DNA of 64,000 bases from Quadrisphaera sp. RL12-1S. GTDB lineage: Bacteria > Actinomycetota > Actinomycetes > Actinomycetales > Quadrisphaeraceae. Made by a program: the position numbers and the translations under genes. The stretch lies in contig NZ_JACNME010000005.1 of assembly GCF_014270065.1 (NCBI RefSeq), forward strand, positions 62,001 through 126,000. Reading direction: 5' to 3'. The notes under the pieces are model-generated. The model did no database searches, was not told the origin of the DNA, and saw only the letters and a program-made list of their open reading frames with translations. Below are positions 31,847 through 49,245 of this stretch, one piece after another (positions within the stretch are counted from its first letter, which is position 1; each line of letters opens with the position of its first letter).

Positions 31847-32459
31847 CGGCGCGGCTGACCGGCGGGGTGGACGCGGCGCGGGCCGCCGACACCTCCTCGC
31901 GGGTCGCGCAGCCCGGGGCGTGGTCGTTGACCAGGCCCATGGCCTGCTGGAACGCGTAGACGGTGGTGGGGCCCACGAACTTCCAGCCGCGCTTCTTGAG
32001 GTCCTTGCTCATGGCCGTCGACTCCGGCGAGGTGGCGCGCACCTCGAACGGGCGCTCTGCCTCACCGTCGGGCGCCCAGCTCCACGCGTAGGCGGCGATG
32101 CTGCCGTGCTCGGCCACCAGCTCGCGGGCGCGCGCGGCGTTGTTGATGGCCGCCTCGATCTTGCCGCGGTGCCTCACGATGCCGGCGTCGCCGAGCAGCC
32201 GTTCCACGTCGCCGTCGTCGAACCGCGCGACCACCTCGTGGTCGAAGCCGGCGAACGCCGCCCGGAAGACCTCCCGCTTGCGCAGGATGGTCAGCCAGCT
32301 CAGGCCGGACTGGAAGCCCTCCAGGCACAGCTTCTCGAACAGGCGCCGGTCGTCGCAGACCGGGAAGCCCCACTCGGTGTCGTGGTAGGCCACGTAGTCC
32401 GGGGTGGAGGTGCCCCACGCGCAGCGCGGGACCCCGTCGGCACCGACGACGACGTCCAC
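31797..32459 (-). CDS. tag: DNA-3-methyladenine glycosylase I
   Basis: A 220-residue base-excision repair enzyme. It begins near RCAWGTSTPDYVAYHDTEWGFP, then LFEKLCLEGFQSGLSWLTILRKRE and VGPTTVYAFQQAMGLVNDH, with the zinc ligands of the family (Cys near the start, His in the YHD motif, His and Cys in DHAPGC). The GTG start overlaps the recX stop by one base (TAGTG) with GAGGAGGAG as ribosome site. The C-terminal 35 residues after HAPGCATREEV are an Ala/Pro-rich extension. It fits the recA-recX repair neighbourhood. Confidence 0.93.
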   Translation of the reverse strand: MDVVVGADGVPRCAWGTSTPDYVAYHDTEWGFPVCDDRRLFEKLCLEGFQSGLSWLTILRKREVFRAAFAGFDHEVVARFDDGDVERLLGDAGIVRHRGKIEAAINNAARARELVAEHGSIAAYAWSWAPDGEAERPFEVRATSPESTAMSKDLKKRGWKFVGPTTVYAFQQAMGLVNDHAPGCATREEVSAARAASTPPVSRAVSPAAAAGRPPAGRTG

Positions 32460-32959
32460 TACTCCTCCTCCTGTCGCACGGCCTCGCGCACCACCCTCAT
32501 GACCAGCCCCTGGGGGTACCCCTTGCGGGCGAGCATCCCGGCCAGCCTCCGGGTCTGGACCTCGGGAGCGAGCGCCCCCATCGACCGCAGGCGCCGCGCG
32601 ACGAGGTCTCGCGCCGAGGCCTCCTCGGCCTCGTCGTCGACCTGCTCCAGGGCGGCGGCCGCGGTGGCGTCGTCGACGCCCTTGGCGCGCAGCTCGTGCG
32701 CCAGGGCCCGCCGGCCCAGGCCCCGGGTGAGGCGCTGGGACCTCACGAGCACCTCGGCGTAGGCGGCGTCGTCGACGAGGCCCACCTCGGTGAACCGCCT
32801 CAGCACCTGCTCGGCGGCCTCGTCCGGGACGCCCTTCTCGGCCAGCTTCTTCTCCAGCTGCGCCCGGCTGCGGGGCGCCGCGGTCAGCTGGCGGAGCACG
32901 ACGTCCCGGGCGACGGCGACGGGGTCTCCCCCGACGCCGCCGCCCTGACGCGTGCTCAG
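32459..32959 (-). CDS. recX: RecA regulator RecX (probable CTG start)
   Basis: RecX restrains RecA filaments. The three helical repeats are visible: [59 protein letters not shown], and a third ending in [17 protein letters not shown]. No ATG, GTG or TTG exists in frame between 32899 and the recA gene body. Starting at GTG 32899 would cut into the first helix. A CTG at 32959-32957 overlaps the recA stop as CTGA and gives 166 residues, with the normal short lead before the first helix. I therefore favour CTG, with GTG 32899 (146 residues) as fallback. Confidence 0.85.
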
Positions 32960-34020
32960 AAGTCGACCTTGGCCTCGGCCGGCAGCTCGACGGTGTCGGC
33001 GGCAGCGGCGGGCTGCCCGATGCCGAGCTTCTCCTTGATCTTGCGCTCGATCTCGTCGCCGAGGTCGGGGTTGTCGCGCAGGAAGGTGCGGGCGTTCTCC
33101 TTGCCCTGCCCGAGCTGGTCTCCCTCGTAGGTGTACCAAGCGCCGGACTTGCGGATGAAGCCGTGCTCCACGCCCATGTCGATGAGACCGCCCTCGCGGG
33201 AGATGCCCACGCCGTAGAGGATGTCGAACTCGGCCTGCTTGAACGGGGGGCTGACCTTGTTCTTGACCACCTTGACGCGGGTGCGGTTGCCAACCGGCTC
33301 GTTGCCGTCCTTGAGCGTCTCGATGCGGCGCACGTCGAGGCGGACCGACGCGTAGAACTTCAGCGCCTTTCCACCCGTGGTGGTCTCGGGCGAGCCGAAC
33401 ATCACGCCGATCTTCTCGCGCAGCTGGTTGATGAAGATCGCGGTGGTGCCGGCGGTGTTCAGCGCACCGGTCATCTTGCGCAGCGCCTGCGACATGAGGC
33501 GGGCCTGCAGACCGACGTGGCTGTCACCCATCTCGCCCTCGATCTCGGCGCGGGGCACCAGGGCCGCCACGGAGTCGATGACGAGGATGTCGAGCGCCCC
33601 GGAGCGCACGAGCATGTCGGCGATCTCGAGGGCCTGCTCACCGGTGTCGGGCTGGGAGACCAGCAGGGCGTCGGTGTCGACGCCGAGCTTCTTGGCGTAC
33701 TCGGGGTCGAGCGCGTGCTCGGCGTCGATGAAGGCCGCGATGCCGCCCGCCTTCTGGGCGTTCGCCACCGCGTGCAGCGCGACGGTCGTCTTTCCCGAGG
33801 ACTCCGGGCCGTAGATCTCCACCACGCGGCCGCGGGGCAGCCCGCCGATGCCGAGCGCGACGTCGAGCGCCGTCGACCCGGTGGGGATGAACTTCATCGG
33901 CTCGCGGACCTCGTCCCCGAGGCGCATGACGGTGTTCTTGCCGAACTGCTTGTCGATCTGCGCGAGGGCGAACTCGAGCGACTTCGACTTGTCGTTGGTC
34001 TTGGTGGCGGGTGCGGCCAC
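32956..34020 (-). CDS. recA: Recombinase RecA
   Basis: A 354-residue protein with all RecA elements: [22 protein letters not shown], Walker [10 protein letters not shown], the MAW/Walker B region [27 protein letters not shown]-binding loops ([16 protein letters not shown] and [27 protein letters not shown]) and an acidic C-terminus. I chose the GTG at 34020 ([11 protein letters not shown]) with AGGGGTG upstream. A GTG three codons earlier is possible. The region upstream has two DNA-damage control elements. No intein is present. Confidence 0.97.
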
Positions 34021-34084
34021 GAGGATCACCCCTGTCGACGGGCACCCGGACCGGCCGGGCGCTGCTGCGGTGCGTTCGGGGACG

Positions 34085-36194: not shown

Positions 36195-37166
36195 ATGACA
36201 GCAGCACCGGTGGCCGCCACCACGGCATCGTCCACCCTCCCGGCCCAGGCCGCGGCCGCCACGGCACGCGGCGGGCTGGTCTACGCGCTCGCCTCCGCCG
36301 CCGCCTTCGGCACCTCCGGCATCTTCGCCAACGCGCTGCTGCACGCCGGCTGGACGCCCGGCTCGGCCGTCATCGCGCGCATGCTGGGCGCGGCCCTCGT
36401 GCTCGCGCCGATCGCCGTCGCCCAGCTCCGCGGCCGCTGGCACCTGCTGTGGCGGGCCCGCTGGCGCGCGCTGGCGTTCGGGGTCTTCGCCATGGCCGGC
36501 TGCCAGCTCGGCTTCTTCGCCGCCGTGCAGACCGTCCCGGTGTCGCTGGCGCTGCTCATCGAGTACTCCGGCGTGCTGCTGGTGGTCGCGTGGGCGTGGA
36601 CCGTCGGCGGCCAGCGCCCCCGCCTGCGCACCGCCCTCGGCGGCCTCGCGGCGCTGGCCGGTCTCGCGCTGGTGCTCGGCGTGGGGGGCGAGGGCCTGAC
36701 CGGCGGGACCGGCCTGGTCTGGGCCGCCGCCGCCGGGGTCTGCCTGGCCGTGTACTTCGTGCTCGCCGCGCACGACGGCAGCGGCGTCCCCGCCCTGGCC
36801 CTCTCCTGGGTGGGCATGCTGGTCGGCGCCGCGGCGCTCGGCGCCGCCGCCCTGGTGGGGCTGCTGCCGATGGGCGTCACCACCGGCGACGTCGCGCTCG
36901 CCGGGTCCGCCGTCCCGTGGTGGTCGGTGGTGCTCGGCATGGTGGCCATCGCCACCGCCTTCGCCTACGGCACGGGCATCGCCGCGGCGCGCCGCCTGTC
37001 GGCGGCGCCGGCGTCGTTCGTGGCGCTCACCGAGGTGCTCTTCGCCGCCGCGTGGGCGTGGGTGCTGCTGGGCCAGCACCTCACCGCGGTGCAGCTGGTC
37101 GGCGGGGCCGTGGTGCTCGCGGGCATCGTCGTCGTCCGCAGCGACAGGTCCTCAGCAGCGGGCTGA
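36195..37166 (+). CDS. EamA-family (DMT) transporter
   Basis: A 323-residue protein with two EamA repeats and about ten membrane helices (first LVYALASAAAFGTSGIFANALL, second VWAAAAGVCLAVYFVLAAH). RLSAAPASFVALTEVLFAAAWAWVLLGQ is the usual end of repeat two. The substrate is not predictable. The 3' end overlaps the convergent protease gene by 15 bases. Confidence 0.87.
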   Translation: MTAAPVAATTASSTLPAQAAAATARGGLVYALASAAAFGTSGIFANALLHAGWTPGSAVIARMLGAALVLAPIAVAQLRGRWHLLWRARWRALAFGVFAMAGCQLGFFAAVQTVPVSLALLIEYSGVLLVVAWAWTVGGQRPRLRTALGGLAALAGLALVLGVGGEGLTGGTGLVWAAAAGVCLAVYFVLAAHDGSGVPALALSWVGMLVGAAALGAAALVGLLPMGVTTGDVALAGSAVPWWSVVLGMVAIATAFAYGTGIAAARRLSAAPASFVALTEVLFAAAWAWVLLGQHLTAVQLVGGAVVLAGIVVVRSDRSSAAG

Positions 37167-37880
37167 GGCGTCCGCCGGGCCCTGGGCCGCCAGCGCGGCG
37201 CGCAGGGTGCTGACCGGCACCGCGTACGCGTCCTCGCCGGTCGTCGCGCCGGCGTAGACCACACCCACCACCGCTCCGCTGCGGTCGACCACCGCTGACC
37301 CGGAGCTGCCCGGCGCCACCGGCGCCTCCAGCCGCAGCACCTGCGCCGCGGCCGTGTGGAGCGGGTCGTCCACGGGGCCGGTGATCACGCCGGTCGCCGT
37401 CGCCAGCGCCTCCCCGTGCGGGTAGCCGACCACCGTGACCGCCTCCCCGCCCACCGGGTCGGCGGACGCCAGCGGCACCGTGGCGGGCAGCTCCTCGCGG
37501 GTGCTCACCACCGCGAGGTCCGCCACCGTGGCCGTCACCGACCCCGCCACGGCCAGCTGGTGACCGTCCCAGGTGTCCACCTGCAGCTGCTCGGCGCCCT
37601 TCACGACGTGGGCGTTGGTGACCAGGGTGTGAGCGTCCAGCGCGAACCCCGACCCGGTCTTGACGCTGGTGCAGCCCACGGTGCGCACCCGCACCGACGC
37701 GCTCACCGCGGTCCGCAGGACGTCGGCGGCGTCGGCGGAGGCGACTGCGCTGGACGCGACCGCCGCCGGGTCCGCCGCCACGGGGTCCACCGGCGGCAGC
37801 TGCGGCACCGCTGCGCACCCCGCCGTCCCCAGCGCACCCAGGACGACGACGGCGGCCCCGCCGACGACCGAGCGCCTCAG
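37152..37880 (-). CDS. Secreted trypsin-like serine protease, putative lipoprotein (probable CTG start)
   Basis: The catalytic domain has the S1/Deg triad: His in TLVTNAHVVKG, Asp in ATVADLAVVS and Ser in APGSSGSAVVD. From the first GTG in frame (37808) the protein would lack an export signal. Reading from a CTG at 37880, which overlaps the upstream stop as CTGA, adds 24 residues: LRRSVVGG, a hydrophobic core, and the lipobox-like GTAGC. This gives 242 residues and a complete signal peptide, so I favour CTG. It forms an operon with the coiled-coil membrane protein upstream. Confidence 0.8.
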   Translation of the reverse strand: MRRSVVGGAAVVVLGALGTAGCAAVPQLPPVDPVAADPAAVASSAVASADAADVLRTAVSASVRVRTVGCTSVKTGSGFALDAHTLVTNAHVVKGAEQLQVDTWDGHQLAVAGSVTATVADLAVVSTREELPATVPLASADPVGGEAVTVVGYPHGEALATATGVITGPVDDPLHTAAAQVLRLEAPVAPGSSGSAVVDRSGAVVGVVYAGATTGEDAYAVPVSTLRAALAAQGPADASARC

Positions 37881-38278
37881 CGGTCCGCCGCCTCGCGCAG
37901 GTCCGTGGCGCGGGCCTTCTCCGCGGCCAGCTGCTCCACGCGCGCGTCAGAGGCGGCGAGGTCCGCGTGGACCGCCGCCACGCGCTGCTGCAGCTGGGCC
38001 GACGTGGCCACCAGCTGCGCACGCTGGGCCTCCGAGCTCTGGGCGCGCTGCTGCCAGGCGTCGCTGACGGCCCACAGGTACGCGGCGGCGCCCAGCGCCA
38101 GCACGAGCGCGACCACCAGACCCACGACGACGCCTGCGCCCGCGCCGCGCCGCTCCCGCCGGCGCGGGCGCTCGCGCAGCGGCGCCGTGGGAGCGGCGGT
38201 GGGCACCACCTCGACGTCCGGCCACGACCGCTGCGCCGGCACCACGGAGGGCCGCACCACGGTCGGCAGCTGGGTCAC
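37877..38278 (-). CDS. Membrane-anchored coiled-coil protein
   Basis: A 133-residue protein. The first 55 residues are Pro/Arg-rich and cytoplasmic, followed by a membrane helix (about residues 57-79, GVVVGLVVALVLALGAAAYLWAV) and a coiled coil (QQRAQSSEAQRAQLVATSAQLQQRVAAVHADLAASDARVEQL). Its stop overlaps the proposed start of the secreted protease, so the two may act together at the outer face of the membrane. The GTG start at 38278 is the first after a long stretch without coding character. Confidence 0.65.
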   Translation of the reverse strand: MTQLPTVVRPSVVPAQRSWPDVEVVPTAAPTAPLRERPRRRERRGAGAGVVVGLVVALVLALGAAAYLWAVSDAWQQRAQSSEAQRAQLVATSAQLQQRVAAVHADLAASDARVEQLAAEKARATDLREAADR

Positions 38279-38389
38279 GCACCCATCGTGACCGCTGGGG
38301 GGTCCGCTCGCCGGAGGTTGCCCAGATCCGTGGGCCCAGCGACCCCGGCACCTTCCTCCACCGGCAGTGCAGCGGTCACCTTCCCCTTC

Positions 38390-38752
38390 GTGATCTCCGG
38401 GGAGGCTCACCGCTACCAGGACTGGGACGAGACCCTCGGTGCGCCCCACGGACCGGTCAGGTCCGCTGCGGAGGCGGAGGCCCGGTTCTCGGCCGGAGAG
38501 ATGGTCACGGTGCTGGTCGGCAGGGCCGAAGCACCCGACGTCGTCCTGCAGGTCAGCCAGTTCGGACACGTGATCGTGACGATGTGGCTCGACCGGCTGC
38601 AGCGACCCGAGGTGACGTACGTCTGGCTCCAGCCGCTCGGGGAGGAGTGGCGCGAGGACGTGCTCCTGTGCCAGGTCGTCTTGAACGAGTTCGACCACCT
38701 GGAGCGGACGGCTGAACGGACGGCGGTGGCCCCCGAACCCTGCGCGGCACCT
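38390..38752 (+). CDS. Uncharacterised protein next to the T7SS locus; 3' end undefined
   Basis: From a GTG at 38390 the frame reads like a folded protein for about 120 residues: AHRYQDWDETLGAPHGPV, AEARFSAGEMVTVLVGRA, VVLQVSQFGHVIVTMWLD, EVTYVWLQPLGEEWRED, VVLNEFDHLE. It then continues without a stop, antisense to the MinD-like gene, as far as 40312, where the sequence loses protein character. The end given is therefore nominal: either the true stop was lost by a frameshift or the protein has an unusual fused tail. The family is not recognised. Its place beside a T7SS locus and its size would suit an immunity-type protein. Confidence 0.45.
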
Positions 38753-39915
38753 CAGAGGCCGCAGACCACGGCCGCGGCCACCCGCTCCCACGCCCGGCGC
38801 GTGCTCGCCGACAGCACCACCGGGTCGACCGGCCCCCCGGCCACGAGCGACCTGTCATGCGGCACCCGCACCACGGTGCGCGTGAGCCGCGCGAAGTGGC
38901 TCTCGATGCGCGCGTCGAGCTCGCTGCCCGCTGCGTCCCGGCCGCTGGCCGGCGCGGTGAGCACGGTGACGGCCTCGGCGACCAGCCGCTCGTGCCCAGC
39001 CGCCCGCAGCGCGTCCGCCAGCCACGCCGCCGACTGCGCCGTGTCCTCCCGGACGGTGGAGACCACCACCAGCTGGTCGGCTGCGGCCAGCGCCGCCTGC
39101 CAGTTCGAGGCGCGCATGTTGTTGCCGGTGTCCACCACCACCAGCCGGTACTGCGCCGCGAGCGCCGCGTGCAGCCTCTGGAAGGCGGCGGCGTCCACGA
39201 GCGCGGCGGAGGCGGCGTCCTCGTCGGAGGCGAGCACGTCGAAGTGCGCCCACGCCTGGTGGCGCACGTACTCGTCCAGGTCACCGACGCGCAGCGGCCG
39301 CTGCGCGGTGAGCTGCGGCAGCGCGTGGAGCAGGTCCACGGCGGTGCGCGAGTGGTCCGCCGGCCGGGCCCGCCAGCCGAGGGTGCCGCGCGTCTCGTTG
39401 TTGTCCCACGCCAGCACCGAGCCGCCGCGGTGCTGCCCGAGGGTGGCTGCCAGCAGCAGCGACGCCGTGGTCTTGTGGGCCCCACCCTTGGGGTTGACGA
39501 CGACGACGGTCCGCGAGCCCTCGAACGGCCGCGCGATGGCCGCCAGATCATCCCGGTGCGCCTGCTCGGCGGCGCCCGGTGCCAGGGAGACCCTCCCCCG
39601 GGTGACGCGGTGCAGCGCGCCGCGCCACCCCCACTGGGCGGGCAGCTCACGTCCCGCGGGGCGGGCGGCGATGAGCTGTTCGAGCGTCGGGGGCGCCTGG
39701 GCGGGTGTCGGCGCGGGCGCCACCGCGGGGGCCGGCTGGAACGGAGTGGCGTCGTCGGCGGGCTGCAGCTGCTGCACCACGCGGCGCACGCGGTCCCAGT
39801 CGGTGGCGGGCAGGTCCACCGGTCGCTCGACCTGCGTGGCGTCCGTCGGGACGGCCAACGGGTGCGAGCGCGCCGGCCGTCCAGCGGTCGGGCTGCCTGC
39901 GGGGTCGGTGGTCAC
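38752..39915 (-). CDS. MinD/ParA-like ATPase associated with type VII secretion
   Basis: A 387-residue protein: a Pro/Ala-rich N-terminal third, then a MinD/ParA ATPase with a deviant Walker A NPKGGAHKTT (about residue 141; both lysines kept), LAWDNNETRGTLGW and VVVDTGNNM. Such ATPases (EspI-like) are found in ESX loci and link secretion to cell state. The GTG start overlaps the eccC stop as GTGA, so it is coupled to eccC. Confidence 0.87.
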   Translation of the reverse strand: MTTDPAGSPTAGRPARSHPLAVPTDATQVERPVDLPATDWDRVRRVVQQLQPADDATPFQPAPAVAPAPTPAQAPPTLEQLIAARPAGRELPAQWGWRGALHRVTRGRVSLAPGAAEQAHRDDLAAIARPFEGSRTVVVVNPKGGAHKTTASLLLAATLGQHRGGSVLAWDNNETRGTLGWRARPADHSRTAVDLLHALPQLTAQRPLRVGDLDEYVRHQAWAHFDVLASDEDAASAALVDAAAFQRLHAALAAQYRLVVVDTGNNMRASNWQAALAAADQLVVVSTVREDTAQSAAWLADALRAAGHERLVAEAVTVLTAPASGRDAAGSELDARIESHFARLTRTVVRVPHDRSLVAGGPVDPVVLSASTRRAWERVAAAVVCGL

Positions 39916-42900
39916 GGTCCGGTCCTCTCCACGTCGTCATCAGCGGTCCAGGCGAGCTGCACCAGCGAGGGCGGCTCAGCTCGGGTCACGTGCAGGGCCC
40001 GGCCCGGTGGCAGGGGGCGCAGCCGGGTGCCGTGGAGCACCAGGCCCTCCTCGCGCGGGCCGGACAGCAGCAGGCCGGGCGAGCCCAGCTCGCGCAGGCG
40101 CCGCAGCGTGGGTCCGGCGAGGCCGGCGGCCGCGCCTCCGGCGGCCCGGGCCACCACGAGGTGCAGGCCGACGTCGGCCGCGACGGGCAGCAGCTCGACC
40201 AGCGGTGCGAGCGGGTCACCGGAGGGCCCGGCCACGAGGTCGTGGTCGTCGACCACCACCAGTGCCTGGGGCCCGTCCCACCAGCTGCGGGCCCGCAGCT
40301 GCTCCCGGGTGACGTCGGGTCCGGGCATCCGCGCGACGAGCTTCTCGGCCAGCGCGGCGATCGTCCCGGCAGCAGCAGGGGCCGAGGCGCAGTACTGGGA
40401 CAGGTGGGCCTCGTCGACGGCGTCGAGGAGGCCTCGTCGGTAGTCGACCACCACCACGAGCAGCTCCGCCGGCGTCCAGCGGCGCGTGTGCGCACGCAGC
40501 AGGGTCCTCAGCGCCGCCGTCTTCCCAGAGCCGGCGTCGCCCACCACCAGCAGGTGCGGGTCGGGCCCGTGCAGCAGGTCCAGGTGCACCGGGCGCAGGT
40601 CCCGCTCGCGCAGGCCGATCGCCACGCCGGGCTCACCGCCTCCGACCGCCCTGGGCAGGTCGTCGAGGGGGACGAGGTCGGGGAGCAGTCCGATCTCCGG
40701 CGTCGTCGTCCCCGTCCACGTCGTCGCGAACGTCCGGGCGAGCTCGCGCACCACCGGGGGCTCTCCTGCCGTGGCGACCTGCACCTCACGGGGCCCGGCG
40801 GCCGTGCTCACGATCATGCGGCCAGGCACGTGGGCGGGCAGGCGCCTCGCGGCGGGGCGGTCCACGAGGGAGTCCCCGGGCTCTCCCAGCCGCAGCTCGC
40901 AGCGCAGGCCCAGCTGGTCCCGCAGCGCGTTCCGCAGGTCGTACCAGCGTCCGCTCGTGACCACCACGTGCAAGCCGACCGCTGCCCCGCGGGTGGCCAG
41001 CGCGGTGATCGGGGCCTCGAGCTCCTCGTGGTCGGCGCGCAGCACGGCCCAGCCGTCCACCAGCAGCAGCACGTGCGGGCGGTCCTGCGCGTCCTCGCCC
41101 TCGCGCTCCTCGACCAGGGCCGTCATCTGGGAGACCACCCGGCGCATGAGCTCGGGCTGGTCGCGGCCGGCGACCGTGCCCACGTGCGGGAGGGCCGCCA
41201 CGTCGCGCAGCCCGCCACCGCCGAGATCGAGGCCGTGCACCTGCACCTGGTCGGGGGTGTGCGTGAGCGCCAGCGACACCACCAGGGAGCGCAGCAGCGT
41301 CGTCTTGCCGCTGGCGGGACCACCCACCACGCCCACGTGTCCCCCGGCGCTGGTGAGGTCGAGCACCCAGGGTGACCGCTTCTGCTGCTCGGGCAGGTCC
41401 ACCACCCCCAGCAGGGGCTGCAGCACGCGCGGCTCGCGAGGCACGCTCCCCAGCAGCCCCGGCAGGCCGACCAGGCCGGGCAGAGGCGGCAGCCAGACCT
41501 GGTGCACGCGCGGTGCGGCCGGGACCAGGCGCTCGACCAGCACGTCGAGCACGGACCGTCTCGCGGGGTCCGACAGGTCCAGCCCCAGCGGCGGCAGCGC
41601 GGTGACGACGTCGTCGGGAGGTGCGAACGCCACCAGGCGCCTCGGCACCGGCCGCGCCTGCACCGGCTGCTGGCGGTGGGGCTCGACGTACGGGGCCGAG
41701 ACCGTGCTGGCCCGCAGCCTCCGGTAGGTGGTGGTGTCCACCTTGAGGTAGGCCGAGCCCGGCGCCGGCGGCAGCTCGAAGGCGTCGGAGCTGCCGATGA
41801 CCGCGCGGCTCTCGGCTGCGCTGAAGGTGCGCAGCGCGAGCCGGTAGGACAGGTGGCTGTCGAGGCCCTTGAGCCGCCCCTCCTCCAGGCGCTGGGTGGC
41901 GAGCAGCAGGTGCACCCCGAGGCTGCGGCCGAGGCGTCCGATCGCCACGAAGACCTCCAGCACGTCCGGCTCCTGCGCCAGCAGCTCGCTGAACTCGTCG
42001 ATCACCACCAGCAGGTGCGGCAGCGGCCGCAGGTCGGCACCGGCGAGCCGGCGCTGGCGGTGCTCGCGGATGCTGGCGAGGTTCCCGCTGTCGCGCAGCA
42101 CCTGCTCCCGACGTCGCAGCTCACCCCTCAGGGCCGCGGCGACCCGCTCGATGGTGCCCGGGTCGTCCTCGAGGTCCGTCACCGAGCCGGCGACGTGCGG
42201 AAGGGCTCCGAGACCGGCGAAGGTCGCCCCGCCCTTGTAGTCGACCAGGACGAACGCGAGGTCGTCCGGGGAGTGGGTGACCGCCAGCCCGGTGACCAGC
42301 GTGCGGAGCAGCTCGGACTTGCCCGAGCCGGTGGCACCGACCACCAGGCCGTGCGGCCCCATGCCGCCCAGGGCCGACTCCTTGAGGTCGAGCTCCACCG
42401 GGCGGCCGTCCACGTCCACGCCCAGGGGGGCCGCCAGGAGGCTGCGCTCGGGGCGCGCGGCCCATGTCAGCGCCGGGTCGACGGCCGCTGCGTCTCCCAC
42501 ACCGAGCAGGTCGACGAGACCCGTGACCTGCGTCAGGGCTGCTCCCTCCCTGCGCGGGGCGAGCCTGAGCGGCGCCAGCGCCCGGGCCAGCACGTCGGCC
42601 TCTGCCACCGACAGCTCGTCCGCGGCAGCACCCTCGCCGCCAGGGCCGTCCCCGTCGACCCCCAGCGACGGACGGCCGTCGGCACCGCGCGGGCCGACCT
42701 CGACCACGTGGTCAGCTCCGGACGGCGCCAGCTCCCGCGTCGGGACGAGCCTCAGCTGGGTCACGCCGGTCGGCCCCAGCGCGGCCAGCTCCGCCAGGGG
42801 GTCCGGCGCCCCCGGCCAGCCGTCGACGACGACGACGAGGGCCGGTCCGCGGTCCGCCTCGGACGACGCCGGCGTCCTGCCCCGCGCCAGCAGTGCCCGG

Positions 42901-43793
42901 CGGCGGTCGAGCTCGGGCCCCAGCAGCGTCAGCAGGTGCTCCGGGCTGCTGGCCAGCAGCGGCTGCTCGGCGCCGTCCGCGTCGCCCGGGTGGTGGGCGT
43001 GGGGCAGCCAGGAGGCCCACTCCCAGACCCGTGCCGCCCCTGGAGCGCTCTGATGCGTCAGGCACACGGCCACCCGCACGTCGTCCGGGGCGTGGAGCAC
43101 GGCCAGCTGTCCCAGCACCGCCCTCGCCGCGGCGCGCACCTGCTCCGGATCACCCACCAGCGCTGTCGTGGCCCCCGCGACGGGCACGACCACCGGGCAG
43201 TCCGCGACCCGGGAGCGGGTGGCCAGGAGGCGCTCCACCGCGCCCCGGGCAGCGGGATCCACGGCCTGGGACGGGTCGACCTCGGGCAGCGCGGGCAGAA
43301 CGAGCGCCGGCACCGACCCCTCGCCGAACCGCAGGTGCAGGAAGTCGGCGTCATCCGTTCGGCGCTCCCACAACCGAGCCGTGCGGGCGACCGACACCAG
43401 GTGGCCGGGGTCGGGGTGCACTGCACGCGCCTCGTCCCGCTGCTGCGTCGCAGCGCGGTCGAGCACGTCGCGGACGTCCGCCAGACGGGTGAAGTAGCGG
43501 ACCCGGCTCACCCCGCCCTGCCCGCGGGTCCGGCGGCGCATCTGGGTCCACATGAGCAGGCCCATGCCGATCGACCCGAGCACGAAGGCGCCGCCTGCCA
43601 CCAGCATCGCGGGGTTGCCGCCCACCAGGGCCATGACCAGCAGACCACCGCTGCCGAGCACCGGGAAGAGGGCGTACGTCCAGCCCACCGTGCTCCCCTG
43701 CGGCTGCACCGGCACCGGTCCCAGCCGAGGGACGTCGGGAAGATCGGGTTGCGGTGGCTGGCGCGGTGGACGGTGCACCACGATGTCGGCCAT
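39912..43793 (-). CDS. eccC: Type VII secretion motor ATPase EccC
   Basis: A 1293-residue FtsK/SpoIIIE-type ATPase. Two membrane helices at about residues 37-80 anchor it. Three ATPase domains follow, with Walker A motifs GATGSGKSE, GGPASGKTT and GDAGSGKTA. Only the first has an intact Walker B with glutamate (VVIDEF). The second and third have LLVDGW and VVVDDH, as in other EccC proteins where these domains bind substrate signals. The ATG at 43793 has an AGGGGGG upstream. A GTG 63 bases earlier is possible. It drives secretion of WXG100 partners encoded on the other strand. Confidence 0.95.
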   Translation of the reverse strand: MADIVVHRPPRQPPQPDLPDVPRLGPVPVQPQGSTVGWTYALFPVLGSGGLLVMALVGGNPAMLVAGGAFVLGSIGMGLLMWTQMRRRTRGQGGVSRVRYFTRLADVRDVLDRAATQQRDEARAVHPDPGHLVSVARTARLWERRTDDADFLHLRFGEGSVPALVLPALPEVDPSQAVDPAARGAVERLLATRSRVADCPVVVPVAGATTALVGDPEQVRAAARAVLGQLAVLHAPDDVRVAVCLTHQSAPGAARVWEWASWLPHAHHPGDADGAEQPLLASSPEHLLTLLGPELDRRRALLARGRTPASSEADRGPALVVVVDGWPGAPDPLAELAALGPTGVTQLRLVPTRELAPSGADHVVEVGPRGADGRPSLGVDGDGPGGEGAAADELSVAEADVLARALAPLRLAPRREGAALTQVTGLVDLLGVGDAAAVDPALTWAARPERSLLAAPLGVDVDGRPVELDLKESALGGMGPHGLVVGATGSGKSELLRTLVTGLAVTHSPDDLAFVLVDYKGGATFAGLGALPHVAGSVTDLEDDPGTIERVAAALRGELRRREQVLRDSGNLASIREHRQRRLAGADLRPLPHLLVVIDEFSELLAQEPDVLEVFVAIGRLGRSLGVHLLLATQRLEEGRLKGLDSHLSYRLALRTFSAAESRAVIGSSDAFELPPAPGSAYLKVDTTTYRRLRASTVSAPYVEPHRQQPVQARPVPRRLVAFAPPDDVVTALPPLGLDLSDPARRSVLDVLVERLVPAAPRVHQVWLPPLPGLVGLPGLLGSVPREPRVLQPLLGVVDLPEQQKRSPWVLDLTSAGGHVGVVGGPASGKTTLLRSLVVSLALTHTPDQVQVHGLDLGGGGLRDVAALPHVGTVAGRDQPELMRRVVSQMTALVEEREGEDAQDRPHVLLLVDGWAVLRADHEELEAPITALATRGAAVGLHVVVTSGRWYDLRNALRDQLGLRCELRLGEPGDSLVDRPAARRLPAHVPGRMIVSTAAGPREVQVATAGEPPVVRELARTFATTWTGTTTPEIGLLPDLVPLDDLPRAVGGGEPGVAIGLRERDLRPVHLDLLHGPDPHLLVVGDAGSGKTAALRTLLRAHTRRWTPAELLVVVVDYRRGLLDAVDEAHLSQYCASAPAAAGTIAALAEKLVARMPGPDVTREQLRARSWWDGPQALVVVDDHDLVAGPSGDPLAPLVELLPVAADVGLHLVVARAAGGAAAGLAGPTLRRLRELGSPGLLLSGPREEGLVLHGTRLRPLPPGRALHVTRAEPPSLVQLAWTADDDVERTGP

Positions 43794-43920
43794 GTCCGGT
43801 CCACCCCCCTCCACCGACGCGGAGATGATCAGTCCCGCAGCCGCGGAGTCTGCCACGGCAGCAGGACACCGGGCATCTCATCGCGAGCCATCACTGCTGG
43901 TCACAGGCCCGGAACGCACG

Positions 43921-45276
43921 GTGTCCACAGCGGCGGCCGGGTGGGTGCGCGTCAGGGCCGTGACACCCACCGGACCGGTCGACGTCTCGCTGCCGCTGGG
44001 GCTGACCACCGCCGAGGTGGTCGACGAGCTGGTGACGTCCCTCGCCCCGGGTGCTCCCCTGGCCCTCGAGGGCCCGTGGCACCTGCACCGCCTGGGTGGT
44101 GCGCCGCTGCCTCCGGACCACCCGCTCGGGGCAGTACGACCCGTGGACGGCGAGGTGCTGCACCTGACCGCGGGTGAGCCCCCACCGCTCGCCGTCGCGG
44201 TGGACGACGCGCTCGACGCGCTCGCCGCCGGCGCCTCGTCCGCCGGGCGCTGGACGTCGAGTGCCGCTACCGGCGTGCTCGTCGCGACCGCCGTGGTGCT
44301 CGGCGTCACCGCCTCGCTCGCCGCCCTCCAGGTGGGGCGCGCCTCAGGTGGGACCCACCTGCTGCCGCTGGCCCTCGCCGTCGTCCTCTGCGGCGTCGCC
44401 ACCCAGCTGCGCCGGGACGGTGGCGTCGCCGTCGCGGTCGCGGCAGCGACGCTGCCCGCCTGGGCCTGCGGCGGACTGGCGCTCGCCGGTGGCGCGGACG
44501 GCCTGCACCGGGTGCTCCTGACCGCCGCGGCCGCGGCCGTCGGCGCGCTCGTCGCCGTCGTCGTCGTCCCGGCGCACCGCGCGTGGTGGGTGGGGGTGGC
44601 CACTGCCGGCACGCTCCTGGCAGGTGCTGCGGCCCTGCCCAGCAGCGGTGCGCTGAGCCTGCGCACCACCGCGGCGGTCGTCGCCGTCGTCCTGGTGTGG
44701 GTCGTGGCGGTGCTGCCTCACCTGATGGCGCGCAGCTCCCTGTGGAGCACCGACTCCCCCGGCGACCGGGCCCGCGAGGAGCTCGGACGGCGCGGCAGGT
44801 CGGCTCGTCAGCTGCTCACCGCGGCGAGCACCGGCACGGCTGCGGTCATCGCTGCCGCCGGAACGGTCCTGGTGCTCGCCGGTCCGGTCAGCGACGCGGT
44901 GCTCGGTGCGGTGCTCGCCGCTGTCGTGGCGCTGCGCGCGCGCCGCAGCCGCTTCGCCGTGGAGTCGACGGCGCTCGCCGTGGCCGGCGCAGTGGTCGTC
45001 GGCGCCGGAGCGGGCCGCCTCGCGGTCGGCACCCCCGACCAGCGCGCGTGGGCGTTGGCGATCGCCGCGGTGGCACTCGCCGGGGTCGTTGCGGCGCTCG
45101 TCGTGGTGGTCCGCGCCGCCCGCGGCGAGGACGCGCTGGCCCAGCGCCTCACCCGCCCGCGGGTGCGCCGCGCCCTCGACGTCGCCGAGGCGGTGCTCGC
45201 CCTGGGAGTGCTCCCGCTGCTGGGATGGGTGCTCGGCCTGTACACCGCTGCGTCTGACGCGGCCGCCTCCTGGTGA
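43921..45276 (+). CDS. eccD: Type VII secretion membrane channel protein EccD
   Basis: A 451-residue protein: an N-terminal ubiquitin-like YukD domain (WVRVRAVTPTGPVDVSLPLGLTTAEVVDELV, closing DGEVLHLT near residue 80), then about eleven membrane helices from residue 117 on. The GTG at 43921 starts directly before the YukD domain. An ATG at 43828 is an alternative that would leave little space for the divergent eccC promoter. Four bases separate it from eccB. Confidence 0.9.
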   Translation: MSTAAAGWVRVRAVTPTGPVDVSLPLGLTTAEVVDELVTSLAPGAPLALEGPWHLHRLGGAPLPPDHPLGAVRPVDGEVLHLTAGEPPPLAVAVDDALDALAAGASSAGRWTSSAATGVLVATAVVLGVTASLAALQVGRASGGTHLLPLALAVVLCGVATQLRRDGGVAVAVAAATLPAWACGGLALAGGADGLHRVLLTAAAAAVGALVAVVVVPAHRAWWVGVATAGTLLAGAAALPSSGALSLRTTAAVVAVVLVWVVAVLPHLMARSSLWSTDSPGDRAREELGRRGRSARQLLTAASTGTAAVIAAAGTVLVLAGPVSDAVLGAVLAAVVALRARRSRFAVESTALAVAGAVVVGAGAGRLAVGTPDQRAWALAIAAVALAGVVAALVVVVRAARGEDALAQRLTRPRVRRALDVAEAVLALGVLPLLGWVLGLYTAASDAAASW

Positions 45277-45280
45277 CGCG

Positions 45281-46603
45281 GTGAACCGGGCGGAGCGCAG
45301 CGCCGGACGCCGAGCGCTGATCGAGGCGGAGGACTTCGCCCGCGCGCGCGCCGTCGCTGCCCTGCAGCGCGGCGACTCATTGGCCCTGGAAGACGTGGCC
45401 CTGCGCCCCAACACCGCCCTCGCCGCGGGCGTCGTGGTGGCCGCGATCGTGGCTGCGGTGGTCGGCGGGGTCGCCTTCCTCACCGATCGGCCCCCGCCGG
45501 GATGGCGGGACGACCGCACGCTCGTGGTCGACGAGGCCGACGGTGCGCGTTACGTCATCGAGGACGGCGTGCTCCACCCCGCACCGACGCTGACCAGCGC
45601 CCTGCTGGCCGGCGCAGCCCCGAAGCCCGTGCTCGTGCCCCACCAGGCCCTGGCCGGCGTCCCCGTCGGCAGCCAGCTGCCCGGGGCGGATCTGCCCGAG
45701 ACCCCGCCGGTGGTACCAGCCCGCCCCGGACCGCTGCTGGCGTGCACCGGCTTCGGCGCGAGCCCCGGTCTGGACGTCTGGACCGGCACCGTCCAGACCG
45801 CGCCGAGCGCGTCGGACGGTCTCCTCGTCAGCCCTCCGGGAACCTCGGACTGGCTCCTGGTCACCGGGGCCGCCGCCTACCCCGTCAACGCCACGGCAGC
45901 TGAGGCTCTCGGCTACTCCCCCGCTCAGGTGAGGACCGTGCCGCGGGCCTGGCTGGACCTGCTGCCCCGCGGGGTCACCCTCGCCCCGCTGACCGTTCCC
46001 TCGCCCTCGGACGGTGGCGGCGTGGAGGGCGTGGGACAGCCCGGCGACGTCGTCCAGGTGGCGGGTGGTGGCGAGCGCCTCCTCGTCCAGGGCGGCCAGC
46101 TCCACCCCTTCGTCAACACGACGAGCGCCCTCCTGGCCCCGGCCCCGGTGAGGCAGGTCAGCGGGCCGGCGCTCACCGCAGCACCGCGCGGTGCTCCGGT
46201 GGGCCTGGCGGACGCGCCCTCGACGCCGCCCCGCGTTCCGGCTCGGGAGGACGACGTCGTCGGGTGCCTCGACAGTGCGACGGACCAGCTGCAGGTGCTC
46301 AGCAGCGTCGAGGCCTCCGGCACCCAGGCGTCCCCGGCCCAGCAGGTGACCGACAGCACCGGCGCTGCGGTGAGCACGGTCTGGCACCAGGTCCCAGGGT
46401 CCGGTGTGCTCGTCGGGCCCCCGGGGTCCGCCGCGTCCACGAGCCGCGACGGGGTGTCGGTGGTGAGCGCGGGGACGGCGTACCCGGTCTCCGACGACCG
46501 CACGCTCAGCGCGCTGGGGCTGTCACGCGAGCAGGTGCTAGCGCTGCCCCGAACGTGGCTCGCGATCGCTGGGCGTGGTCCGGCGATGACGGCGAGTCGC
46601 TGA
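45281..46603 (+). CDS. eccB: Type VII secretion protein EccB
   Basis: A 440-residue protein with a basic cytoplasmic N-terminus (RAERSAGRRALIEAEDFARARAVAAL), one membrane helix (about residues 47-69) and a large outer domain made of EccB repeats: RTLVVDEADGARYVIEDGVLHPAPTLTSALLL-like first repeat, LLVTGAAAYPVNATAAEALGYS and AGTAYPVSDDRTLSALGLS repeats with paired cysteines (LLACTG and VVGCLD). It completes the EccB-C-D core in this locus. Confidence 0.9.
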   Translation: MNRAERSAGRRALIEAEDFARARAVAALQRGDSLALEDVALRPNTALAAGVVVAAIVAAVVGGVAFLTDRPPPGWRDDRTLVVDEADGARYVIEDGVLHPAPTLTSALLAGAAPKPVLVPHQALAGVPVGSQLPGADLPETPPVVPARPGPLLACTGFGASPGLDVWTGTVQTAPSASDGLLVSPPGTSDWLLVTGAAAYPVNATAAEALGYSPAQVRTVPRAWLDLLPRGVTLAPLTVPSPSDGGGVEGVGQPGDVVQVAGGGERLLVQGGQLHPFVNTTSALLAPAPVRQVSGPALTAAPRGAPVGLADAPSTPPRVPAREDDVVGCLDSATDQLQVLSSVEASGTQASPAQQVTDSTGAAVSTVWHQVPGSGVLVGPPGSAASTSRDGVSVVSAGTAYPVSDDRTLSALGLSREQVLALPRTWLAIAGRGPAMTASR

Positions 46604-46730
46604 CCAGGCTTCCTTCCAGCACATCCACAGCCGACCTTGACCATCTCTTGGTTCTCTTCGAGTCCGGTTCGTGGCAGTTTGCTCCCGCAAGATCACCAGA
46701 CGACCACGCGAGAACCGCAAGGGAGCTCCC
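46604..46730 (+). promoter_or_regulatory. Leader region of the WXG100 operon
   Basis: This 127-base gap is less GC-rich than its surroundings and contains TTGACC at 46637-46642, which could be a -35 element, but no good -10 at the right distance. AAGGGAG lies a few bases before the ATG at 46731. Probably an own promoter for the abundant small secreted proteins. Confidence 0.3.
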
Positions 46731-47054
46731 ATGGCTGGGCTGTTCGACACCTCCACCACCACCATGCGCACCACCGCCACCCGGGTGCTCAGCGACGCCG
46801 ACCTCATCCGCACCGACCTGGCCGGCCTGCTCAACAAGCTCACCGCCCTGGAAGGAGCCTGGATCGGGGACGGACGCACCGCCTTCACCGGCGCCGAGGC
46901 CCGCTACTCCGACGCCAACGCCCGCCTCAACGCCGCCCTGGATGAGATCTCCCGCCTCATCTCCGCCAACGAGGCCCGCTACACCTCCGATGACGCCTCC
47001 GCGCAGTCGGCCCTGTCCGCGGCCGGGTCCAACTTCGCCGCCCCCGGCTTCTGA
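46731..47054 (+). CDS. WXG100-family protein, copy 1
   Basis: A 107-residue helical-hairpin protein with the turn motif in the variant WIGDGRTAF (Trp at about residue 43). Helices on both sides are Ala-rich and lack cysteines and a signal peptide, as usual for ESX substrates. It should pair with the next gene's product and be exported by EccC. The ATG has a good ribosome site. Confidence 0.88.
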   Translation: MAGLFDTSTTTMRTTATRVLSDADLIRTDLAGLLNKLTALEGAWIGDGRTAFTGAEARYSDANARLNAALDEISRLISANEARYTSDDASAQSALSAAGSNFAAPGF

Positions 47055-47084
47055 ACCCCTCACTGCAGAAAGAGGATCTCTGAG

Positions 47085-47375
47085 ATGGCTGACCAGATCC
47101 GCGTGACCTTCGGCGCCCTGGACACCGCCGTCGGTGACATCGCCGCCGGCGTCGCCGCCCAGGGCACCCGCATGGATGACCTGCGCGCCGCGATCGCCCC
47201 GATGGTGGCCACCTGGGAGGGCTCCGCCCAGGCCGCCTACCAGGGCGCGCAGGCCAAGTGGGACTCCGCCTGGAACGACCTGACCAGCGCCCTGACCCAG
47301 TTCCAGACCGCCACCGACACCTCCAACCAGACCTACCAGGCCGGGGAGAACGCCAACACCGCCGCCTGGGCCTGA
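47085..47375 (+). CDS. WXG100-family protein, copy 2 (ESAT-6-like)
   Basis: A 96-residue protein with the classic WEG turn (MVATWEGSAQAAYQGAQAKWDSAW) at about residue 44 and a C-terminal tail YQAGENANTAAWA. The usual YxxxD/E export signal could be YQAGE. It is the likely heterodimer partner of the preceding protein, 30 bases away with GAAAGAGGA as ribosome site. Confidence 0.93.
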   Translation: MADQIRVTFGALDTAVGDIAAGVAAQGTRMDDLRAAIAPMVATWEGSAQAAYQGAQAKWDSAWNDLTSALTQFQTATDTSNQTYQAGENANTAAWA

Positions 47376-47805: not shown

Positions 47806-49245
47806 ATGGCCACCACCGTGGCTGCCCCGACCGCTTCCGCCGCCGGGACCGCGGGGATCGCCGGTGACCCCGCCGCCCTGTACGCCGCAGCCGATGAGAT
47901 GACCGCGACCGCGAAGGACTTCTTCAACGCCGCTGATGCCATCGCCGCCCACGGCCGCACCGTCACCGCCAACTGGGTCGGAGACGCCTCCGATGCCGCA
48001 GGCCGTCACATCGCGGCGCTGGCTGCTCGCGTGCAGGTCGGCTTCGACGTGTACACCCAAGCCGCCGACGCGGTCCGCACCTACGCCCACGCCCTGTCCC
48101 TGGCCCAGGACGCCTACATCACCGCGGCAGCGCGTGCCCAAGCAGCCAGCACCGCCCTCGGCGACGCCCACCAGGCGGTGACCACAGCCGCGGCGATGCC
48201 CACCACCAACGCCACCGGCCAGATCGACCCCACCGCCCAAGCAGAGCAGTCACAAGCTGCCCACGACGCAGCCACCGCCGTCACCACCGCCAGCACCGCC
48301 CTGACCGGTGCCCAGCAGGACATGGCCACCGCCGTCGCCGACGCCGCAGCCGCAAACCAGAGCGCCGCCGAGGCCATCAACACCTGCTGCGACCAGCTGG
48401 CGGCCATGGGCGGCGAAGCGAGCACCACCACGACAGCGAGCACCGGGGGGGCAAGCACCAACGCCACCTACACCGGCGCCACCGCCCACCCGACGCCCCC
48501 GACGCCGCCCAAGCACCACGAGTCCGCCTGGGACGGCGCCATCGACTGGGCCAAGGGCGCCGAGAACTGGCTGGAAGACAACTCAGGCACCATCGCCGAC
48601 GTCCTCGGCACCGCCGCACTCATCAGCGCCTTCATCCCCGGCGTCGACCTCGCCCTCACCCCCATCCTGGGAGCACTCTCAGCAAGCGCCGGCCTCATGG
48701 CCGCCCACCACGCCTACGCCGAGGGCGACAAAGCCCAAGGCGACCAGCAGATCCTGATGGCCGGCCTCAGCATCCTCCCCGACGGCCGCATGCTCGGCGA
48801 AGGCCTCCAAGCAGTCAAGGGCCTCAAGGAAGCCGACGAGGTCGCCAACGCAGCACACGCCGTCAAGGGCGTCAGCAAAGATGATCTAGCGGCAGCTGGC
48901 CTGGACCCGGACGTGCCCACAGTTATCTTTAGCCGGTCCAGAGGCCCCAACCTCGAGAGCAATTTCAATGACGCAGTCGCGGCAGGAAGGCCCAGACGGC
49001 TCACGCGCGCCACCGCCAAGCAGGCGGACGTTAATCGGCGAAAGGCCTTGTTGGACAGGGATCGACCACGTGGCCTGTCGCTCGATGAGTACCCTTTCGC
49101 CTCTTCCGAGCAAGGCGGCGAAGGGTCATTTGTGCTGGCAGTCCCCAAGCAAGAACAGAACTACCAGGGCGGGGTTCTCTCAAGCTTCTACCGAACTCAC
49201 AACATCCAGCCGGGCGACGACTACCAGGTACACTTCGGGCCATGA
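47806..49245 (+). CDS. Polymorphic T7SS toxin with C-terminal NucA/NucB-type DNase domain
   Basis: A 479-residue effector. Residues about 20-200 are helical with a WVGD turn (Trp57), the trafficking part. About 220-370 hold a Thr/Pro linker (TPPTPPKHHE) and a hydrophobic pre-toxin region (DVLGTAALISAFIPGVDLALTPILG). Residues about 371-479 match the NucA/NucB nuclease family: RPRGLSLDEYPFASSEQGGEG, VPKQEQNYQGGVLSSFY and a closing GDDYQV. The core motif DEYPFAS contains the catalytic acidic pair. The ATG at 47806 follows GGGGAGGGG. The last 340 bases are lower in GC than the rest. The stop overlaps the immunity gene as ATGA. Confidence 0.88.
   Translation: MATTVAAPTASAAGTAGIAGDPAALYAAADEMTATAKDFFNAADAIAAHGRTVTANWVGDASDAAGRHIAALAARVQVGFDVYTQAADAVRTYAHALSLAQDAYITAAARAQAASTALGDAHQAVTTAAAMPTTNATGQIDPTAQAEQSQAAHDAATAVTTASTALTGAQQDMATAVADAAAANQSAAEAINTCCDQLAAMGGEASTTTTASTGGASTNATYTGATAHPTPPTPPKHHESAWDGAIDWAKGAENWLEDNSGTIADVLGTAALISAFIPGVDLALTPILGALSASAGLMAAHHAYAEGDKAQGDQQILMAGLSILPDGRMLGEGLQAVKGLKEADEVANAAHAVKGVSKDDLAAAGLDPDVPTVIFSRSRGPNLESNFNDAVAAGRPRRLTRATAKQADVNRRKALLDRDRPRGLSLDEYPFASSEQGGEGSFVLAVPKQEQNYQGGVLSSFYRTHNIQPGDDYQVHFGP

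Follow-up and report, generated by a model that had tools for sequence, protein, structure and literature searches.

A protease gene at a CTGA overlap

The window analysed here is the whole stretch of 64,000 nucleotides from Quadrisphaera sp. RL12-1S. On its minus strand, a gene for a protein with one membrane segment (by eye) is followed by a gene for an S1 (trypsin-like) protease, and the locus comprises the following features:

37877..38278, minus strand: upstream gene with predicted start GTG 38278; one membrane segment and a coiled-coil-like tail (by eye)
37891..37894, minus strand: GAGG, Shine-Dalgarno-like, inside the upstream gene and 10 nt before the protease CTG
37877..37880, minus strand: four-base CTGA overlap of the protease start and the upstream stop
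37878..37880, minus strand: CTG, putative start codon of the protease; no ATG, GTG or TTG at or before the Arg-Arg n-region
37152..37880, minus strand: S1 protease gene, which comprises 242 codons plus stop when read from CTG
37815..37880, minus strand: predicted lipoprotein signal peptide of the protease, lipobox Cys22 at 37817-37815
37806..37808, minus strand: GTG, codon 25, first canonical start (ATG, GTG or TTG) of the protease frame, after Cys22; available to a gene finder that accepts canonical starts only

The upstream gene, for which a family profile search of 38278..37877 returned nothing above the cut-off, ends on the minus strand in GCG GAC CGC TGA, and its TGA is overlapped by the CTG at 37880-37878; the putative protease start thus lies on the stop of a gene of the same strand, the arrangement that characterises translational coupling. 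The first-pass annotation had located such an overlap within 37870-37890, and CTGA is found there at 37880-37877. It had further stated that the first GTG begins after the lipobox cysteine, which is also correct, as GTG 37808 is the first canonical codon of the frame and is located three codons past Cys22. In the 5' direction the frame is open for 22 codons up to a stop at 37949-37947, and none of these 22 codons is ATG, GTG or TTG. The sequence of the protease as read from CTG, with Met assumed for this codon, is MRRSVVGGAAVVVLGALGTAGC. Residues 76-207 match the Trypsin_2 profile (E 9.4e-22, 78.7 bits against a cut-off of 27.6), and this match above the cut-off together with the His, Asp and Ser residues identifies the product as an S1 trypsin-like peptidase.

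The tetranucleotide as such carries little weight. Among 474 neighbouring genes paired on the same strand in 760 kb, 256 have a C immediately before the stop; an in-register CTGA thus comes cheaply by chance, and the evidence for CTG therefore has to be sought in the missing alternative start and in the orthologues.

The protease gene resides beside a type VII secretion cluster at 38752-47375, which includes two WXG100 proteins and the following genes:

38752-39858: MinD/ParA-like ATPase
39912-43715, minus strand: EccC-like FtsK/SpoIIIE ATPase
43921-45276: EccD
45281-46603: EccB

We considered a role of the protease in type VII secretion, as genes for EccC-like, EccD, EccB and WXG100 proteins adjoin it here, but rejected it because six stretches of 18-20 kb around the protease gene in other genomes contained no Ecc match. 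The product of 47818-49245 combines a weak N-terminal WXG100 match, below the cut-off, with a C-terminal NucA/NucB DNase domain and is possibly a secreted effector of the cluster. Between the MinD-like gene and the coiled-coil gene, an open frame on the plus strand (38339-38764) has by eye the look of an immunity protein and is without a Pfam match.

The N-terminus of the protease in related genomes

A search of 59 genomes, our own included, gave protease matches in 54, the majority being weak and probably representing other proteases. The comparison was therefore made on the 13 top-scoring loci (L009-L021), each with at least 160 bits, among them those of six Quadrisphaera genomes (G000-G005, G000 being our own). 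The junction is CTGA in all six Quadrisphaera genomes, and a canonical start that would preserve the basic n-region was found in none of the six. The first canonical codon is codon 25 in G000, 16 in G002, 11 in both G001 and G003, 14 in G004 and 27 in G005, in each case past the basic n-region and either within the hydrophobic core or beyond it. The junction of the sister genus (G008) is also CTGA, with a GTG at codon 3, while order-level orthologues carry at the same position GTGA (G019, G053, G037 and G038) or ATGA (G020 and G054). The earlier proposal that the signal peptide can be gained only by starting at CTG is borne out by these relatives with a conventional start at the very same place and by the lack of an earlier canonical start. 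The upstream gene of G005 differs at its C-terminus, with TCC in place of CGC as last codon, and still keeps the in-register CTGA. We also considered conservation of the wobble C as evidence for CTG and set it aside as it says little: of 39 free-wobble codons of conserved residues in the upstream gene, 6 have C in all five genomes compared, and among conserved-Arg columns CGC is found in all five in 3 of 9.

Read from CTG, the protease starts with the basic n-region, hydrophobic core and lipobox cysteine of a bacterial lipoprotein. When all 13 orthologues are read from the junction position, the residue aligned with Cys22 is invariant, as are His91, Asp121 and Ser193, which, judging from the family, we presume to be the catalytic residues. 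A G+LPP-type lipoprotein pattern matches 10 of the 13 from the NTGA start, the exceptions being G005, G008 and G019, and none of the six Quadrisphaera proteases from the first canonical start. Thus, the protease is predicted to be lipidated and located at the membrane.

These comparisons bear on two simpler accounts of the locus. The protease might really start at GTG 37808 (codon 25), as a short cytoplasmic protein whose apparent signal peptide is a chance translation. GTG starts are common here (114 GTGA junctions in the start register, see below) and the stretch from CTG to GTG has a low coding score of 1.9 nats, which counts against the CTG start; yet the hydrophobic N-terminus and the invariant cysteine are kept in 13 orthologues, six of which have ATG or GTG at the overlap, and the first canonical codon wanders from codon 11 to 27 within Quadrisphaera, inside or after the hydrophobic core, so that we regard this account as very unlikely. 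Even less probable appears a fusion of the protease by frameshifting to the upstream membrane protein at its stop, without a new start. The two frames do overlap at the stop and are one base apart, but a slippery heptamer is not seen by eye at GAC CGC TGA, relatives have GTGA or ATGA instead, and a fusion would bury the conserved signal peptide and lipobox cysteine. A start at CTG is hence, on the strength of the compared sequences, a well-supported assignment for the protease.

Further CTGA junctions and their frequency in the genome

The first-pass annotation had pointed to the same geometry at recX:

32956..34029, minus strand: recA, last codon TTC (Phe), wobble base C or T only
32459..32959, minus strand: recX read from CTG 32959-32957, with a CTGA overlap at 32959-32956 with the recA stop

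This observation holds: recA ends in TTC TGA at 32956, recX is in frame from CTG 32959, and an in-register CTGA is present in all six Quadrisphaera genomes. In this genus the first canonical start of recX falls on the border of the first RecX helix domain; in our genome it is codon 21, whereas the alignment to the RecX model NF001064 begins at residue 8. It is thus likely that recX shares the arrangement of the protease, with reinitiation at the CTG of CTGA. A recX match was obtained in 56 of the 59 genomes, and 30 loci (L039-L068) were examined, of which L062 and L065 have no usable recA stop. Among the loci examined, ten outside the genus have an open-register CTGA at this junction; apart from these and the six of Quadrisphaera, none of the usable loci has one. 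The ten differ in where a canonical start first occurs: not before residue 27 in G012, G042 and G057, near residue 14-16 in G009, G011 and G025, and soon after the junction, as ATG, in G007, G023, G024 and G029. CTG-dependent recX may hence be wider than Quadrisphaera. Of the 28 usable loci, 26 have TTC (Phe) as the last codon of recA, which makes a purine impossible at the wobble base there.

Some additional observations were made around recX. Its TAG stop overlaps the GTG of the next gene by one base (TAGTG, 32457-32461, minus strand), and this next gene encodes, by eye, a DNA-3-methyladenine glycosylase. The junctions outside the genus at which recX is in the CTGA register and lacks a canonical start ahead of residue 27 include the loci L051, L056 and L060.

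Two further junctions probably share the arrangement of the protease, those of aat behind msrB and of an MFS transporter gene (named by eye) behind murB. An in-register CTGA links msrB and aat in G000, G001, G002 and G004, and in these four no canonical start occurs between the junction and the EPPPSP motif of aat, which is also present in G007 and G008, there behind a possible GTG start. Two of the four have to be read with reservation: in G001 an in-frame GTG 18 nt upstream counts against a need for CTG, and the G004 match is in two pieces in different frames, the automatic survey row representing another register. In G003 and G005 (MAG) aat does not follow directly; here the CTGA of msrB opens a short frame whose TGA makes a new CTGA. 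Such a relay of tiny CTGA-linked frames from msrB to aat is seen once in G003 (L148) and several times in G005 (L149). From these sequences it might be speculated that aat is reached in the two congeners via a relay of tiny CTG-to-TGA frames, and chance or a sequence error may have produced the pattern. Behind murB, the CTGA is in register in all six Quadrisphaera genomes and the N-terminal tail of the transporter varies in length; only G000 and G003 are without a canonical start before the first membrane helix. In G000 this first start is codon 49, and Pfam MFS_1 aligns from residue 29. As msrB ends in His and recA in Phe, a purine is impossible at the wobble position of either, and an NTGA overlap can only be CTGA or TTGA.

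The frequency of such junctions was surveyed with a home-made gene model on 1.08 Mb of the 4.62 Mb genome G000, taken from portions of contigs C5, C1 and C2, the register counts being derived from 468 same-strand pairs with a coding onset near the upstream stop. CTGA occurred 92 times in the start register versus 67 and 51 times in the other two, GTGA 114 times versus 33 and 13, ATGA 52 times versus 7 and 1, and TTGA once versus twice in each of the others. A canonical start lies no more than 14 nt from 31 of the 92 in-register CTGA, and in 20 of these 31 it takes the form CTGATG. The first-pass annotation had inferred that coupled reinitiation in this organism tolerates CTG, in which case an excess of CTGA junctions was to be expected. 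In bulk that excess fails to appear: in the 1.08 Mb, CTGA is not clearly enriched in the start register as ATGA and GTGA are. The inference is thus only partly borne out, by the protease, by recX and by two more CTG-dependent candidates, but not as a general habit of the genome.

The question then is whether genes lacking a canonical start concentrate at in-register CTGA. With at least 4 nats of coding evidence, 12 of 92 in-register CTGA lead into such start-less genes versus 6 of 118 in other registers (p = 0.037); two of the 12 have a frame that the junction finds closed, and without them the figure is 10 of 92 (p = 0.096); the counts are 4 versus 2 at 6 nats and 2 versus 1 at 8 nats. By a second criterion, start-less genes made up 7 of 50 at in-register CTGA. 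At the remaining close junctions they were 5 of 157 (one-sided Fisher test against CTGA, p = 0.0096), and among genes that have no stop close upstream 40 of 598 (p = 0.060); this last group combines same-strand genes at a greater distance (18 of 280) and genes whose upstream neighbour is on the opposite strand (22 of 318). That none of 150 was start-less at ATGA, GTGA and TTGA is largely by construction. A filter for conservation of the upstream stretch, applied to 100 junctions with an orthologue, was passed by 10 of 21 start-less cases, 3 at CTGA and 7 elsewhere; these seven look like intergenic conservation between close relatives, and the filter alone does not discriminate.

Some start-less entries proved false on inspection, and the protease itself is absent from the register-survey list. 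A canonical start fits for radA (named by eye; CTG 390266 of C1), as does a GTG at codon 44 for an rpoC-like gene (by eye), and neither was retained. A FecCD permease gene (by eye) was dismissed because of an in-frame GTG 48 nt upstream and a close in-register CTGA in only one (G001) of five other genomes, and a nucleotidyl transferase gene (by eye) because it is ambiguous. Taken together, the survey supports CTG dependence weakly and the case rests on the orthologue comparisons; the link of CTG starts to coupling, while suggestive, falls short of proof. A few junctions make conserved use of CTG, which is a rare option and not a general habit, and only a small subset of CTGA depends on it.

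The survey also bears on the possibility that CTG is a deliberately weak start which keeps the product scarce, the overlap itself being of little matter. A CTG start that gives just enough expression has been proven for the rep gene of a FIB plasmid (PMC11983097, in the sections consulted), and not all start-less genes are at close junctions (the 40 of 598). On the other hand, they are more common at in-register CTGA than at other close junctions, and in recX and aat the preceding Phe and His codons allow only C or T at this base, which makes tuning unnecessary. That all four candidates lie on CTGA is no test, as two were found by looking at CTGA only. We consider scarcity by design unlikely, yet a contender to be taken seriously.

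Proposed reinitiation at CTG and comparison with known systems

Our preferred reading, to which we assign a probability of roughly 0.8, is that the protease would be translated by reinitiation at the CTG of the CTGA overlap, giving a membrane lipoprotein. The ribosome that ends the upstream gene would sit on CTGA, assisted by the GAGG 10 nt upstream; thus parked, it would restart at CUG with formylmethionine, and the signal peptide would then direct the protease to the membrane, where its cysteine would be lipidated. Both the reinitiation mechanism and decoding of CUG by the initiator tRNA are inferred here. Using the 16S tail located in the genome itself, the duplex with the region upstream of the start was calculated at -8.0 kcal/mol for the protease and -7.1 for recX, and at -3.5 for aat and -1.9 for the MFS gene, the last two being weak. 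By class, the means are -7.83 kcal/mol for ATGA (n=52), -6.56 for GTGA (n=114) and -4.44 for in-register CTGA, with -3.98 and -2.77 for CTGA in the other registers. A relaxed initiator tRNA was considered as well and is argued against by the ordinary GGG-CCC anticodon stem of the one initiator-type tRNA-Met found, in a search for copies with that stem. Alternatively, an internal promoter could give rise to a leaderless or separately led protease transcript; this we regard as highly improbable, since a Shine-Dalgarno-like GAGG precedes the CTG, and the relevant passages of PMC4633059 report that CTG is not an effective leaderless start in M. smegmatis.

Hence, to judge from the sequences compared, the protease of Quadrisphaera, predicted to be membrane-anchored, and probably a few other genes appear to start at a CTG, hardly used as a start by bacteria, that overlaps the preceding stop. 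CTG has seemingly been kept as a start through a genus at several junctions despite its rarity. It might tentatively be hypothesized, with doubt prevailing, that the reinitiating Quadrisphaera ribosome is only weakly selective against CUG and that certain junctions have CTG as a stable functional start, which the final residue of the preceding protein (Phe in RecA, His in MsrB) helps to hold in place. If so, the quality of a start codon would be hostage to the C-terminus of the neighbouring protein. If CTG starts at such overlaps are real, reinitiating ribosomes relax start-codon choice, and this would bear directly on whether initiation by a ribosome that has just terminated differs from that by a free 30S subunit. 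Annotation pipelines restricted to ATG, GTG and TTG would truncate such genes and lose their signal peptides, and a scan that extends N-termini upstream as far as an NTGA overlap would bring them back.

In the passages of the literature consulted, CTG is put at 0.024% of bacterial starts, and expression from CUG in E. coli at 0.86% of that from AUG (PMC11497404, citing another study). CTG was reported as not enriched in a study on start selection in M. smegmatis (0.03%; PMC4633059) and in initiation profiling of M. tuberculosis (PMC9094748), again going by excerpts. Overlaps of -4 are given as ATGA or GTGA in the relevant part of PMC10666635. The base before UGA has been described as setting an overlapping AUG or a less favoured UUG, GUG or CUG (PMC7246954), and the principle that a C-terminal codon constrains the overlapping start is therefore not new; the portion of that article covered names no gene actually using CUG. 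A word search for CUG in the accessible text of the review PMC12548453 gave no hit, and the one of PMC6728339 gave none for CTGA, CTG or GTGA, which is uninformative since GTGA is missing too. We found no report of conserved CTGA-coupled starts in the open-licence literature searched.

The junctions described here resemble the known -4 nt termination-reinitiation overlaps of the ATGA and GTGA type in that start and TGA overlap by four bases between co-directed genes and, at the protease and recX, in a Shine-Dalgarno-like motif within the upstream gene; they differ from them in the start being CTG. A bacterial CTG start has been demonstrated by mutation for the FIB plasmid rep gene, which is usually annotated from a GTG 14 codons downstream (PMC11983097). 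The portion of that article consulted describes no stop-codon overlap, and 'coupl' is absent from it by word search; moreover, rep is a plasmid gene, whereas a set of chromosomal junctions is involved here. With regard to the protein, the Trypsin_2 domain and a best NCBIfam match to MarP_fam_protase (residues 33-236) liken the protease to MarP and HtrA-like trypsin-fold proteases. Membership in the MarP family was rejected, as the protease reaches 85.6 of the required 250 bits and covers only profile positions 168-380 of 390, and in contrast to MarP and HtrA-like proteases it has no PDZ match and a lipoprotein-type N-terminus. Finally, mycobacterial recA and recX also overlap, by 32 or 35 bp according to the part consulted of PMC3062782, while in Quadrisphaera the overlap comprises 4 bp and includes the CTG.
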